A DNA stretch of 64,000 nt from positions 2,190,001 to 2,254,000 of the forward strand of contig NZ_CP050022.2 in assembly GCF_011602485.2 (NCBI RefSeq), written 5' to 3'. This DNA comes from Bradyrhizobium sp. 1(2017) (GTDB lineage: Bacteria; Pseudomonadota; Alphaproteobacteria; Rhizobiales; Xanthobacteraceae). Below are positions 42,693 to 47,016 of the stretch, one piece after another. A program made the translations under genes and the position numbers. Each line of letters opens with the position of its first letter. Within the stretch, counting starts at the first letter, position 1. Below the pieces are notes generated by a model, which did not search any database, was not told where the DNA came from, and saw nothing but the letters and a program-made list of their open reading frames with translations.

Positions 42693-42769
42693 CGGAGTGT
42701 GGCTCAGCCCGGTAGAGCACTGCGTTCGGGACGCAGGGGTCGCAGGTTCGAATCCTGCCACTCCGACCA
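42693..42769 (+). tRNA. tRNA-Pro (anticodon CGG)
   Basis: 77 nt with encoded CCA. The acceptor stem CGGAGTG pairs with CACTCCG, the anticodon loop TTCGGGA holds anticodon CGG (reads CCG), and the T-arm has GGTTCGAATCC. It lies between the divergent sua5 start and the 43-kb hypotheticals. From 42770 to 43083 I see no convincing gene; only a GGCGCC hairpin near 42825. Confidence 0.97.
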
Positions 42770-44274: not shown

Positions 44275-45231
44275 GTGGCAAGATTTGTGAATGTTGCGGC
44301 CGGCCAGCTTGGTTCGATCGCGAGAAGCGAGACGAGGACCGAGGTCGTGGCGCGGCTGATGGCCATGATGCGCCGCGCGCATGCCAGCGGCTGTGACCTG
44401 ATCGTCTATCCCGAGCTTGCGCTGACCACGTTCTTTCCACGCTGGTATTTCGAGGATCAGGCCGAGATCGACGCATTCTTCGAGCGCGAGATGCCGGGGG
44501 CGGAGACGCGCGCCCTGTTCGACCTCGCGCGCGAGCTCGGCATCGGGTTCTATCTCGGTTATGCCGAGCTGACGGTCGAGGCCGGGATCGTCAGACGCTA
44601 CAACACCTCCATCCTGGTCGACCGCAGCGGCGCGATCGTCCTGAAATATCGCAAGGTCCATTTGCCCGGCCATGCCGAGCACGAGCCGTGGCGCAAATTT
44701 CAGCATCTGGAGAAGCGCTATTTCGAGCCCGGCGCGGGCTTCGGTGTGACCAGCGCCTTCGGTGGCGTGATGGGCATGGCGATCTGCAACGATCGCCGCT
44801 GGAGCGAGACCTACCGGGTGATGGGCCTGCAGGGCGTCGAGATGGTGATGATCGGCTACAACACGCCGGTGCACAATCCGCCCGCACCGGAGCACGACGA
44901 TCTCTCGCTGTTTCACAATCATCTGGTGATGCAGGCCGGCGCCTATCAGAACGGCACTTTCGTGGTCGGCGTCGCCAAGGCCGGCATCGAGGAGGGGGTG
45001 GACCACATCGGCGGAAGCTGCATCATTGCGCCCTCGGGCGAGATCGTTGCGAGATGCACGACGAAGGGGGACGAGATCGCGCTGGCCCGCTGTGACCTCG
45101 ATCTCTGCAATTCCTACAAGCGCACGACGTTCAATTTCGACGTTCACCGCCAGCCGCAGACCTATGGGATGATCGTCGAGCGGAAGGGCGTGGCCACCAG
45201 GGCGGACGGAACGCCGGTGCCGCCGAGCTGA
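44275..45231 (+). CDS. N-carbamoyl-D-amino-acid hydrolase (nitrilase superfamily)
   Basis: Hydrolyses N-carbamoyl-D-amino acids to D-amino acids, CO2 and ammonia. 318 residues from the GTG at 44275 with GAAGGA upstream. The catalytic triad is Glu47 (FPELAL-type, here YPELALTTFF), Lys127 (YRKVHLPGH) and Cys171 (AICNDRRW), matching the positions in Agrobacterium DCase. HNPP and FNFDVHRQPQTYG are also shared. No hydantoinase gene is adjacent, so it may act alone in carbamoyl-compound salvage. Confidence 0.9.
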   Translation: MARFVNVAAGQLGSIARSETRTEVVARLMAMMRRAHASGCDLIVYPELALTTFFPRWYFEDQAEIDAFFEREMPGAETRALFDLARELGIGFYLGYAELTVEAGIVRRYNTSILVDRSGAIVLKYRKVHLPGHAEHEPWRKFQHLEKRYFEPGAGFGVTSAFGGVMGMAICNDRRWSETYRVMGLQGVEMVMIGYNTPVHNPPAPEHDDLSLFHNHLVMQAGAYQNGTFVVGVAKAGIEEGVDHIGGSCIIAPSGEIVARCTTKGDEIALARCDLDLCNSYKRTTFNFDVHRQPQTYGMIVERKGVATRADGTPVPPS

Positions 45232-45240
45232 CGCTCTTGC

Positions 45241-45315
45241 AGCCCGGGTGAGCGCAGCGACACCCGGGGCAATCATCCGCGTAACATCCCGGATGTCGCT
45301 GCGCTCATCCGGGCT
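45241..45315. repeat. Palindromic repeat AGCCCGGGTGAGCGCAGCGA family
   Basis: Arms AGCCCGGGTGAGCGCAGCGA (45241-45260) and TCGCTGCGCTCATCCGGGCT (45296-45315), with an inner CACCCGGGG / CCCGGATG pair. It follows the carbamoylase gene and starts a 1.1-kb stretch without a supported coding gene. Confidence 0.8.
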
Positions 45316-45782
45316 ACGGGGACCGATCATTGCCCGACGGGCAAAACACCCTGGTAGGTGTCAAGTCGCCGCTTGAAAATATTCCACTTTACCGAAATTC
45401 GGAAACGGCGTATGTGTCGTCCATCCCGGCTCGCCCTTGAGGGGCGGTCATGTGTCGTGTGATCGCAGAGCCGGGCTTGCGGTGGACGCAGCAGCGTCGT
45501 GCGCGAGAGGCGTGGGCAGGGCGGATTGCTCTCCGTGAGCCCAGGGCTTCGCGTGGACGAGCGGCGCTGTCAGGTTCGTCGCGTCACATTCCGATGGCAA
45601 CGTGCACAACGCCGTCGGACCCTGTGGCGCCAACGGGCCGTGCGTACGGCAAAACCGTGTGGTCCTGGCCGTCGTTGCTACGGTCAAGCCCTGGCGGATG
45701 CGGCGCTCGCGTCAACCGGCGCGGTGCCGGCGACTTTCGCCGGGGTGAGGGAGGCCAGAAGGAATTCGGCTCCCGGGAGAGC

Positions 45783-45919
45783 ACGGCATAAGCCGTCCGA
45801 CCATCGCGCGGGGAAGGCCGTGTGTTGGGCTTCACCTGTATGCTGCTGTGCGGTTCTTCCTGCGTGTGCCTTTCGCGCAGTGGACCGCGGGTGCCGCCGG
45901 CACCCGGCCTTCCCTGCGC
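45783..45919 (+). ncRNA. Candidate multibranched structured RNA / multicopy element core
   Basis: A perfect small hairpin ACGGC-ataa-GCCGT (45783-45796) precedes a long closing stem: 45806-45820 pairs with 45905-45919 over 15 bp, including one G-U. It encloses a 7-bp stem 45846-45852/45874-45880 with one U-G pair and a hairpin 45890-45895/45899-45904. Both wobble pairs become A-C mismatches if read from the minus strand, favouring a plus-strand RNA. I recall very similar sequence in many copies in Bradyrhizobium genomes, often mis-called as small ORFs; this was not searched. Sequence from about 45420 may belong to the same element. Confidence 0.45.
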
Positions 45920-46007
45920 CCTCTTGGTTAGGGCGAAGTGACGAAGCAAAGCTCGGGCGAAATCAGTCGCGAGAACGGGAAGCCGTGTCTGTAGCCACGC
46001 ACGCGCT

Positions 46008-46140
46008 GTCATCGTCCGGCTTGACCGGACGATCCAGTATTCCGAGGCGGCAGTGATTGCATCGAGACGCCGCGGCGTACCGGATTCCCCGCTCCAGTGC
46101 GCAATTGCGCACAAGGCGGGGAATCCAGTGGAGATTGGGC
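46008..46140. repeat. Composite palindromic repeat
   Basis: Begins with the 9-bp hairpin ATCGTCCGG-cttga-CCGGACGAT (46011-46033), the same module as at 8574, and ends with GATTCCCCGC...GCGGGGAATC around a GTGCGCAATTGCGCAC palindrome like that at 35962. Two repeat modules seem joined here. Confidence 0.65.
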
Positions 46141-46162
46141 AGCCAACGATCGCCTCATACTC

Positions 46163-46249
46163 CGTCATTGCGAGCGCAGCGAAGCAATCCAGAGTCTTGC
46201 AACGGTGGGATTCTGGATTGCTTCGTCGCAAGGGCCCCTCGCAATGACG
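46163..46249. repeat. Palindromic repeat, TCATTGCGAG family (copy 3)
   Basis: CGTCATTGCGAGCGCAGCGA...AGCAATCCAGA and the inverted TCTGGATTGCTTC...CTCGCAATGACG, an imperfect copy of the repeat at 30343-30422. Confidence 0.85.
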
Positions 46250-46373
46250 ACTGCGGAGGCAGTGATGCGCGCCACGCCGCTCTCGCGCCCCGGACGCAGC
46301 GCGGCGCGTGCGGGACCCGAGAGCTGCCGGACCTCATTTCCCCATTCACAACCACGTGTCTTTATTCGGAAAC

Positions 46374-46386
46374 GGTCATTCCCTAT
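46374..46386. promoter_or_regulatory. TetR operator half-site upstream of tetR
   Basis: GGTCATTCCCTAT is identical to 13 bases of the full operator at 47030-47051, 9 nt before the tetR start. The other half (46365-46374) matches at 6 of 10 positions, suggesting a weaker autoregulatory site. Confidence 0.55.
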
Positions 46387-46395
46387 CATGCCGCG

Positions 46396-47016
46396 ATGCA
46401 CAAAACCGCTCTCAGATCTCAGTCCGCCGCCCGTCCGCCCGGCCGTCCCCGGGAGTTCGACATGGACACCGCGCTCGACAGGGCGGTGCGGGTGTTTCGC
46501 GAGCGCGGTTATCATGCCACCTCGATCGGCGACCTCACCGCGGCGATGCGGCTGGCGACGGGGAGCGTTTACAAGGCCTTTCGCGACAAGCATGCCGTGT
46601 TCCTCGCCGCCTTCGAGCGCTACACCAGTCTGCGTCAGGAGCAGACGCGCAGCGCAGCGGCGCGTGGCACGAACGGCCGCGAGCAAATCCGCAATGTGCT
46701 CTTGTCCTATGTCGCGCATTCCCAGGGCAGCGAGGGGCGGCGCGGCTGCCTCGTCGTCGGCAGCGCGGTCGAGATGTCCGCGCTCGATCCGGTCGTCGGC
46801 GCCCGCGTCAATGCGCAGCTCAAGGCCAACGAAAGCTTCATCGCGGGGCTCATCCGCGATGGGCAGGCCGACGGCTCGATTCCCAGCCATGTGGCGGCCG
46901 ACGACACCGCGCGGCTGATGATCTGCATCACGCAAGGCCTGCGCGTCGTCGGCAAGGCACGCCTGCCGCTCGACGGCGACCGTCTCGTCGCCGTCGCCAT
47001 GAAGCTGCTCGCCTGA
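46396..47016 (+). CDS. TetR-family transcriptional repressor
   Basis: 206-residue TetR/AcrR regulator. The N-terminal helix-turn-helix ATSIGDLTAAMRLATGSVYKAF covers residues 41-62, preceded by FDMDTALDRAVRVFRERGYH. A C-terminal ligand-binding domain follows, with GCLVVGSAVEMS as a conserved segment. No ribosome site precedes the ATG at 46396; the longer frame to 46057 lies in repeats and is rejected. The following MFS gene and two matching operator sites make it the likely local repressor of the efflux gene. Confidence 0.9.
   Translation: MHKTALRSQSAARPPGRPREFDMDTALDRAVRVFRERGYHATSIGDLTAAMRLATGSVYKAFRDKHAVFLAAFERYTSLRQEQTRSAAARGTNGREQIRNVLLSYVAHSQGSEGRRGCLVVGSAVEMSALDPVVGARVNAQLKANESFIAGLIRDGQADGSIPSHVAADDTARLMICITQGLRVVGKARLPLDGDRLVAVAMKLLA

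Follow-up and report, generated by a model that had tools for sequence, protein, structure and literature searches.

Organization of the element between the carbamoylase and tetR genes

The stretch of DNA analysed here, referred to as the window, comprises 64,000 nucleotides of the 7.86-Mb genome of Bradyrhizobium sp. 1(2017). A carbamoylase gene, the product of which has a CN_hydrolase domain, is separated from a tetR gene by a gap of approximately 1.16 kb, assuming that tetR starts with the ATG at 46396. The initial annotation placed a group of hairpins at positions 45783–45919 of this gap, and each of them was found on the plus strand: the small hairpin ACGGC-AUAA-GCCGU (45783–45796); closing stem S1 of 15 bp (45806–45820 with 45905–45919), the single G-U pair of which is 45810/45915; internal stem S2 of 7 bp (45846–45852 with 45874–45880), with a single U-G pair at 45849/45877; and hairpin S3 of 6 bp (45890–45895 with 45899–45904). 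Segment 45750–45930, folded as plus-strand RNA, reached −96.6 kcal/mol (z = −4.02), and none of 200 shuffled sequences folded as well; for the minus strand, z was −2.75 and two of 200 shuffles were as good. The hairpins are real, beyond chance. Their reading as a structured plus-strand RNA stands, but the extent of 137 nt does not. Comparison of the copies indicates that they form no more than the 3′ domain of a repeated unit of about 620 bp, which spans approximately 45376–45991 on the plus strand, some 4.5 times the length of the interval first reported.

From 5′ to 3′, the unit consists of a promoter-like block, a structured RNA of about 570 nt, and a terminal boxA that is present in 18 other copies and missing from the window copy. 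The limits of the unit follow those of the similarity between copies. Several copies in the same genome, identified using blastn, share a 5′ limit near 45375/45376. At the 3′ end, similarity to the window copy stops at 45989–45991 in four loci (L004, L006, L008, and L013) and continues into downstream repeats in two others (L002 and L003). In an alignment of 21 loci from the same genome, strongly conserved blocks extend from AAAATATTCC through the last hairpin.

The promoter-like block (45360–45416, plus strand) is conserved in most of the 21 aligned loci. It contains GTCAA (45360–45364), AAAATATTCC (45376–45385), a −35-like TTTACC (45388–45393), a 17-nt spacer, and a −10-like TATGTG (45411–45416). 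One locus of the same genome (L020) has TTGACA at the −35 position. A promoter, predicted to be active, is likely to be located at the 5′ end because many copies from other genera have TTGACA-N17-TATATT or TTGACA-N17-TATAGT at the promoter positions, at an equal distance from the RNA start.

The structured non-coding RNA occupies 45420–45991 of the plus strand; its start was placed about 7 nt past the −10-like sequence, and its end where the copies cease to be similar. The 5′ stem P1 (45425–45432 with 45468–45475) has 8 bp, all of which are canonical in the window copy, and its loop contains the strand GAGGGGCG (45439–45446), of which 45439–45443 can pair with 45919–45923. The 5′ stem is followed by GCGGTGGACGC, a variable stretch, and the conserved core GCGTACGG..CGTGTGGTCCTG (45642–45669, plus strand), most columns of which are at least 90% identical in 35 aligned copies. 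A 12-mer of the core is exact in 25 of the 35 copies, and CGYGTSGTCC is present in 34. The small hairpin at 45783–45796 is well kept within the genus and looser in other genera. The 3′ domain closed by S1 is separated by CCCTC from the 3′ hairpin (45952–45973, plus strand), which is formed by CUCGGGC and GUCGCGAG with one bulged G. The 3′ end (45974–45991) is the site occupied by boxA in other copies and is unrecognisable as such in the window copy.

The gap also contains other repeats. A 28-nt inverted repeat, the arms of which are 93% complementary, is located at 45241–45315, directly 3′ of the carbamoylase gene, and similar sequences stand beside three other copies of the element (L014, L016, and L021). 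Two more dispersed intergenic repeats (TGTCATCGTCCGGCTTGACCGGACG.. and CGTCATTGCGAGCGCAGCGAAGCAATCC..) occupy 46004–46250 and adjoin several copies of the element in either orientation.

Fold of the RNA and compensatory base changes

The fold was analysed using an alignment of 35 copies (A1), an alignment of 60 of 115 hits kept below 88% identity (A3), and an alignment of all 82 non-redundant 5′ sequences (A5). In alignment A1, RNAalifold predicted 41 pairs, seven of which have double changes and many of which have one-sided changes from G-C to G-U that fit the plus strand (e.g., GC in 20 and GU in 15 sequences). The wobble pairs of the hairpins fit a plus-strand RNA, as had been noted. The seven pairs of the 3′ hairpin vary among the 35 sequences, for example with UA in 33, UG in one, and CG in one, or GC in 28, GU in six, and AU in one.

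The stems of the 3′ domain had been proposed for a test of compensatory changes, and such changes were found in all three of them among the 60 sequences of alignment A3. In stem S1, 98.3% of cells are paired; its double changes include AU in 35 and GC in 21 sequences, GC in 39 and CG in 19, and one pair that appears as GC in 25, CG in 19, UA in nine, and AU in three. Stem S2 varies more than any other helix in the domain: 74.5% of its cells are paired, and six of its seven pairs have double changes. Hairpin S3 is paired in 85.6% of cells and has double changes in five of six pairs; its innermost pair is unpaired in 46 of the 60 sequences. The structure score of alignment A3 is 0.296, compared to 0.156 for shuffled alignments (0 of 500 as high), and none of the 500 shuffles reached the alignment on any of the five measures, although the relatedness of the sequences inflates this and all the other shuffle tests reported here, and their figures are not probabilities. 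The score also exceeds those of all slid versions of the structure. The element behaves as a structured non-coding RNA in having compensatory changes beyond those given by column composition.

The 5′ stem P1 is paired in 88.6% of cells in alignment A5, with the window copy excluded. It has double changes of GC in 54 to AU in 19 sequences, CG in 36 to GC in 20, and CG in 52 to UA in 11. The number of cells with a double change is 53, compared to 16.5 after shuffling, and the score is 0.297, compared to 0.185 (0 of 500 in each case). Neither the pairs with a double change (3 versus 4.0) nor the pair types (15 versus 15.2) outnumber those of the shuffles. All 82 sequences were counted because the hand choice of 61 of them in an earlier alignment (A4, superseded by A5) could introduce bias; the picture obtained from the 61 sequences was the same.

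The consensus fold of the whole length, calculated from 50 diverse copies, has 95 pairs that are paired on average in 91.5% of the copies, and 26 of the 95 have double changes in at least three sequences. It contains a long-range helix between GAGGGGCG and CGCCCTC, which are about 480 nt apart. The cells of this helix are paired in 86.2% of cases, compared to 83.2% after row shuffles (0 of 1,000). Edge pair 15/392 is AU in 19 of the 50 sequences, UA in seven, GU in four, CG in three, GC in three, and other combinations in 14, and edge pair 16/391 is GC in 40, AU in five, GU in one, and other combinations in four. In the 44 of 50 sequences in which both anchors were found, the helix is extended by a mean of 3.77 additional contiguous pairs, compared to 2.64 in row shuffles, none of 5,000 of which were as high. 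The window copy can form 5 bp of the long-range helix and has only two of the additional contiguous pairs; the last of the 5 bp and the outermost pair of S1 compete with each other. Together, P1 and the long-range helix would, we infer, form a pseudoknot. RNAalifold retained the long-range helix and discarded P1 in the whole-length fold, and none of the programs used predicted the full pseudoknot. The molecule of about 570 nt probably folds as one, because compensatory changes occur in S1, P1, and the 3′ hairpins, and because of the long-range helix.

A tentative alternative helix, ACCUGU/GCGGGU (45834–45839 with 45887–45892, plus strand), excludes S3. It is paired in 89.9% of cells and its covariation is 0.320, compared to 0.275 for shuffled and at most 0.13 for slid versions; the number of pairs with double changes (3 versus 2.2) and the number of pair types (11 versus 9.8) are not clearly above the shuffles. 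Given this mixed support, a switch between the alternative helix and S3 is possible. The GGGU strand is common to the two helices, of which alignment A3 keeps the alternative helix in about 90% of cells and S3 in about 86%.

The element scores as non-coding

The initial annotation held that the gap has no supported gene and that the sequence is repeatedly mis-called as small proteins, and both statements agree with our data. Long open frames are present, and 180 database proteins match the translation of a 185-aa frame (E ≤ 0.001). Among the 120 of them that were listed, none has a Pfam domain, and those from a named organism are hypothetical proteins of Bradyrhizobium. A family of small protein-coding genes, which these matches might suggest, is nevertheless disfavoured to the point that we give it almost no credence: all six frames of the element score as non-coding, with per-codon log-odds of −0.25 to −0.46, whereas the genes on either side score +0.23 and +0.24; codon-based gene calls cover the element at one of 55 loci; and the compensatory changes are those of an RNA.

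A role as the leader of a downstream gene was also considered and rejected, because the neighbours are mostly antiparallel (the downstream gene in 36 of 52 loci) and 11 loci of distant copies have no apparent downstream gene in common.

Distribution of the element

The many copies noted for Bradyrhizobium were borne out by blastn, which detected the element in all 25 genomes searched from the genus, compared to 0 of 16 other genomes of the order. Homologues are not restricted to the genus: search R1 was positive in 93 of 248 genomes of the family, representing 21 of its 47 sampled genera. The remaining 155 genomes had no match at the stricter filters of R1, and the element is therefore not a housekeeping RNA of the family. 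Among sites matching the 5′-end pattern (at least 120 among the matches listed), Bradyrhizobium, Tardiphaga, Afipia, Rhodopseudomonas, Pseudorhodoplanes, and metagenome-assembled genomes (MAGs), one of them named Reyranella, are represented. The 3′ stem strand, searched for separately, was found at 73 of the 84 such sites with 640 nt of downstream sequence, and a core-like motif at 63 of the 84.

Outside the family, searches of the order and class gave no convincing match. All eight genomes positive for R1 in a draw of 249 from the order belong to the same family as the window. Search R2 of 397 genomes of the order was positive in 17 genomes of the family and in one of another family (G396); the latter was rejected as a chance match, since its locus, assigned by elimination (L331), has none of the other motifs looked for. 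Search R3 of 385 genomes of the class was positive in three: the genome of the window (G000), G021, and G1039, which belongs to another family. The G1039 copies are likely the result of misbinning, because they are Bradyrhizobium-like, the contigs that carry them are small, and there was also a match in a MAG named Reyranella. No relative of the window copy was found among 72,556 plasmid records and 50,697 phage records.

Copy number, orientation, and similarity of copies

Five complete genomes contain, among the matches listed, at least 19 (G000), 17 (G021), 44 (G005), 20 (G008), and 12 (G002) copies; these counts omit weaker antisense mirror hits and one weak forward hit (G008 at 1381966, 50.7 bits). 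Within the genome of the window, blastn aligned L002 and L003 to the window copy over the whole unit at 96–97% identity, and the other copies over shorter or longer parts at about 62–88%, with short pieces of up to 99.7%.

Copies tend to be co-oriented with replication. This applies to 82 of 112 copies among the matches listed in the five genomes, and, once the 15% closest to the terminus are excluded, to 74 of 92 (p = 3e-9 against a fixed null of 0.5 and 4e-5 against 0.6, where orthologous copies are non-independent, parS was used as the origin, and the terminus was taken as opposite).

The site between carbamoylase and tetR was compared in 30 loci, of which 15 have the full element, five run out of contig inside it, three have a partial element, six lack it, and one is not covered. 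Two copies at other places in the same genome share 96.9% identity with the window copy, compared to 77.5–87.1% for the same-site copies of 14 other genomes. The neighbouring carbamoylase genes are 87.6–93.0% identical. At this one site, greater similarity within the genome than to same-site copies may be read as concerted evolution or turnover. Among copies chosen by their likeness to the window, mean identities are 0.893 within G005 and 0.901 within G008, compared to 0.796 between G000 and G005; the means between G000 and G021 (0.854) and between G005 and G008 (0.858) are near those within G000 (0.864) and G021 (0.873).

The element might instead be a mobile repeat that is selfish and non-autonomous, similar to a SINE or a MITE, and keeps an RNA structure and a promoter only to aid its own spread. 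The high copy number in each of the five genomes, the presence or absence of the element at the carbamoylase–tetR site in related species, copies that are cut short, the similarity of the window copy to those of its own genome, and the orientation bias all speak for a selfish repeat. On the other hand, an inverted-repeat search of 45200–46400 found no pair joining the two ends of the unit, no coding frame lies inside it, the plasmid and phage records contain no relative of the window copy, compensatory changes extend across several genera, and the element is common to many species at the one site tested. A comparison of element-bearing with element-free sites showed a gap full of other repeats, with no clean junction at which to look for a target-site duplication. 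We regard the selfish repeat as possible, though on the unlikely side.

Alternatively, the element might be a cis-acting DNA or RNA punctuation: a terminator, an insulator, a 3′-end stabiliser, or an orientation-bearing mark of the chromosome. Its position between convergent genes at 20 of 52 loci and the biased orientation along the replichores speak for such a role. It appears quite unlikely in view of the promoter-like sequence of the element itself, and the covariation of the long-range helix and the 5′ stem would be superfluous in a terminator. Moreover, S1 is followed by CCTCTTGGTTAGGG and not by a U-tract. Of the three readings offered by the initial annotation, regulatory RNA, mobile repeat, and transcription terminator, the last fits least. 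An FtsK-type orienting motif (KOPS) was considered as well: the window copy contains GGGCAGGG, but the motif was rejected, as the flanking bases differ in other copies.

Islands inserted into the conserved core

Two genomes contain a copy of the element that is split by an island. In G000, the 5′ half (4430900–4431235) and the 3′ half (4390206–4390543) are on the same strand, 40.4 kb apart, and in G002 the halves of a likewise split copy are 41.9 kb apart. The islands span 4390543–4430900 of G000:C1 (L114–L116) and 8217388–8259255 of G002:C1 (L117–L119). The breaks, attL and attR, share CGTGTGGTCCTG over 12 bp in G000 and 11 bp in G002; the counterpart of this attachment core in the window copy is 45656–45667 (plus strand). 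Beside attR in G000 is a gene for a 478-aa protein with Phage_integrase and Arm-DNA-bind_3 domains, and the integrase in G002 is 83.5% identical to it. Another 5′ half ends at the same core (L121), and one more ends in GTGTGGTCC (L120). The G000 island also encodes a Toprim/DUF7146 protein, and a ROSE thermosensor is located in the G002 island (L117:9459–9554).

These islands, with their repeats and integrases, could indicate that the element is a phage- or island-borne sequence, the copies of which mark integration sites. Two predicted viral contigs from IMG/VR (L296 and L298), which carry the element 1–2 kb from the contig end, point the same way. In all, four viral contigs matched the 5′ pattern, the other two (L297 and L299) by chance, and 14 matched the core pattern. 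This origin is disfavoured and very improbable, as many copies are uninterrupted across the core, and the phage records contain no relative of the window copy. Because of the unbroken copies, and because blastn found no further element within the G000 island, the element looks like the target of the islands, as tRNA genes are, and not like their cargo.

A boxA motif at the 3′ end of some copies

The pattern GCTNTTTGANANNTGAA, which we take to be boxA, occurs exactly three times in the 7.86-Mb genome: 241 nt before the 16S rRNA and at the ends of two copies of the element. Counting these two, the unit has GCTGTTTGA or GCTCTTTGA at its end in 18 distinct copies, 13 of which belong to other genera. 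ACA(A/G)TTGAAT or a variant of it usually follows, and beyond this no shared sequence is apparent. The two copies from G000 have the exact boxA pattern; in the 16 others, GCT[CG]TTTGA is followed by a looser tail. No match was found in the window with up to two mismatches. Of 138 unique sites, which include two chance viral ones, 102 are followed by at least 500 nt of sequence, and 23 of these have the motif more than 350 nt downstream. Its absence from the window copy and its presence at only 23 of the 102 sites count against the explanation that we prefer, set out below. As a lead, boxA points to the antitermination machinery, and suggests that the ancestral RNA may have met NusB-S10.

The leader of the rRNA operon in this genome shares GCTNTTTGANANNTGAA with the copies of the element, whereas in the element boxA is located at the 3′ end and is followed by unshared sequence, with no rRNA downstream.

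Comparison with known RNAs and repeats

At gathering scores, Rfam models had no match over the element, and their only match in the window is a tRNA at 42693–42766. Among six further loci (L079, L081, L083, L089, L114, and L117), the only match was the ROSE element in L117. A lax search of 45000–46700 gave seven matches, all below gathering scores, one of which lies inside the element (45530–45581, E = 4.4). Models of OLE, ROOL, and GOLLD are presumably present in Rfam 15. Group II intron, tmRNA, and RNase P were considered by eye and dismissed for lack of Rfam support. The element resembles tRNA and tmRNA genes in that tyrosine-integrase islands enter its conserved core, but it is neither a tRNA nor a tmRNA according to Rfam.

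OLE, ROOL, and GOLLD are described as large ornate bacterial RNAs (PMC12286853), and the element is likewise large, non-coding, and elaborately folded; it differs from them by having no Rfam match, many dispersed chromosomal copies, and, in part of the copies, a boxA end. Br-REP1 and Br-REP2 of Bradyrhizobium are, like the element, repeated, intergenic, and RNA-folding, and are short palindromes of about 20–40 nt (PMC5082802). The Br-REP1 consensus printed there has no match in the window with up to three mismatches. Searches of openly accessible papers by sequence string and by topic found no description of the element.

Possible function of the RNA

We lean, by a little, towards the following explanation: a structured non-coding RNA of about 570 nt is encoded by genes dispersed through genomes of the family of Bradyrhizobium, and the hairpins are the 3′ domain of the copy in the window. 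A stable RNA acting in trans seems to us more probable than the main rival, a selfish repeat that spreads by means of its RNA. Selection would act on a transcript, given the promoter-like start of the element, its standalone position, and a fold in which the compensatory changes are those of the RNA strand. The RNA would be transcribed as a stable molecule from its own sigma-70 promoter and fold into one compact structure. Because of the many similar copies and the lack of a shared neighbour to regulate, it may be a protein-binding or multimeric RNA that acts in trans, at a dosage set by copy number. The copies would have been multiplied and kept alike by recombination.

A more far-reaching, and rather unlikely, version is that the element represents an undescribed large RNA family: a dosage-tuned multi-gene stable RNA expressed from strong promoters along both replichores, with a 480-nt pseudoknot, switch-like alternative helices, and a terminal rrn boxA binding NusB-S10, which would couple its own dosage to rRNA synthesis. 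The link of boxA to rRNA antitermination is directly testable. To our knowledge, a large RNA in dozens of similar chromosomal copies is unusual in bacteria. If the preferred explanation is correct, Bradyrhizobium and relatives such as Tardiphaga, Afipia, and Rhodopseudomonas, well-studied bacteria of soil and nodules, would gain a large and widespread RNA family. The Bradyrhizobium copies have been deposited as assorted hypothetical proteins. The family would also account for an island integration site and for contig breaks in Bradyrhizobium genomes. Contigs of Bradyrhizobium draft assemblies (L130, L134, L141, L149, and L153) and of G065 end inside or beside the element, and therefore it probably breaks short-read assemblies.
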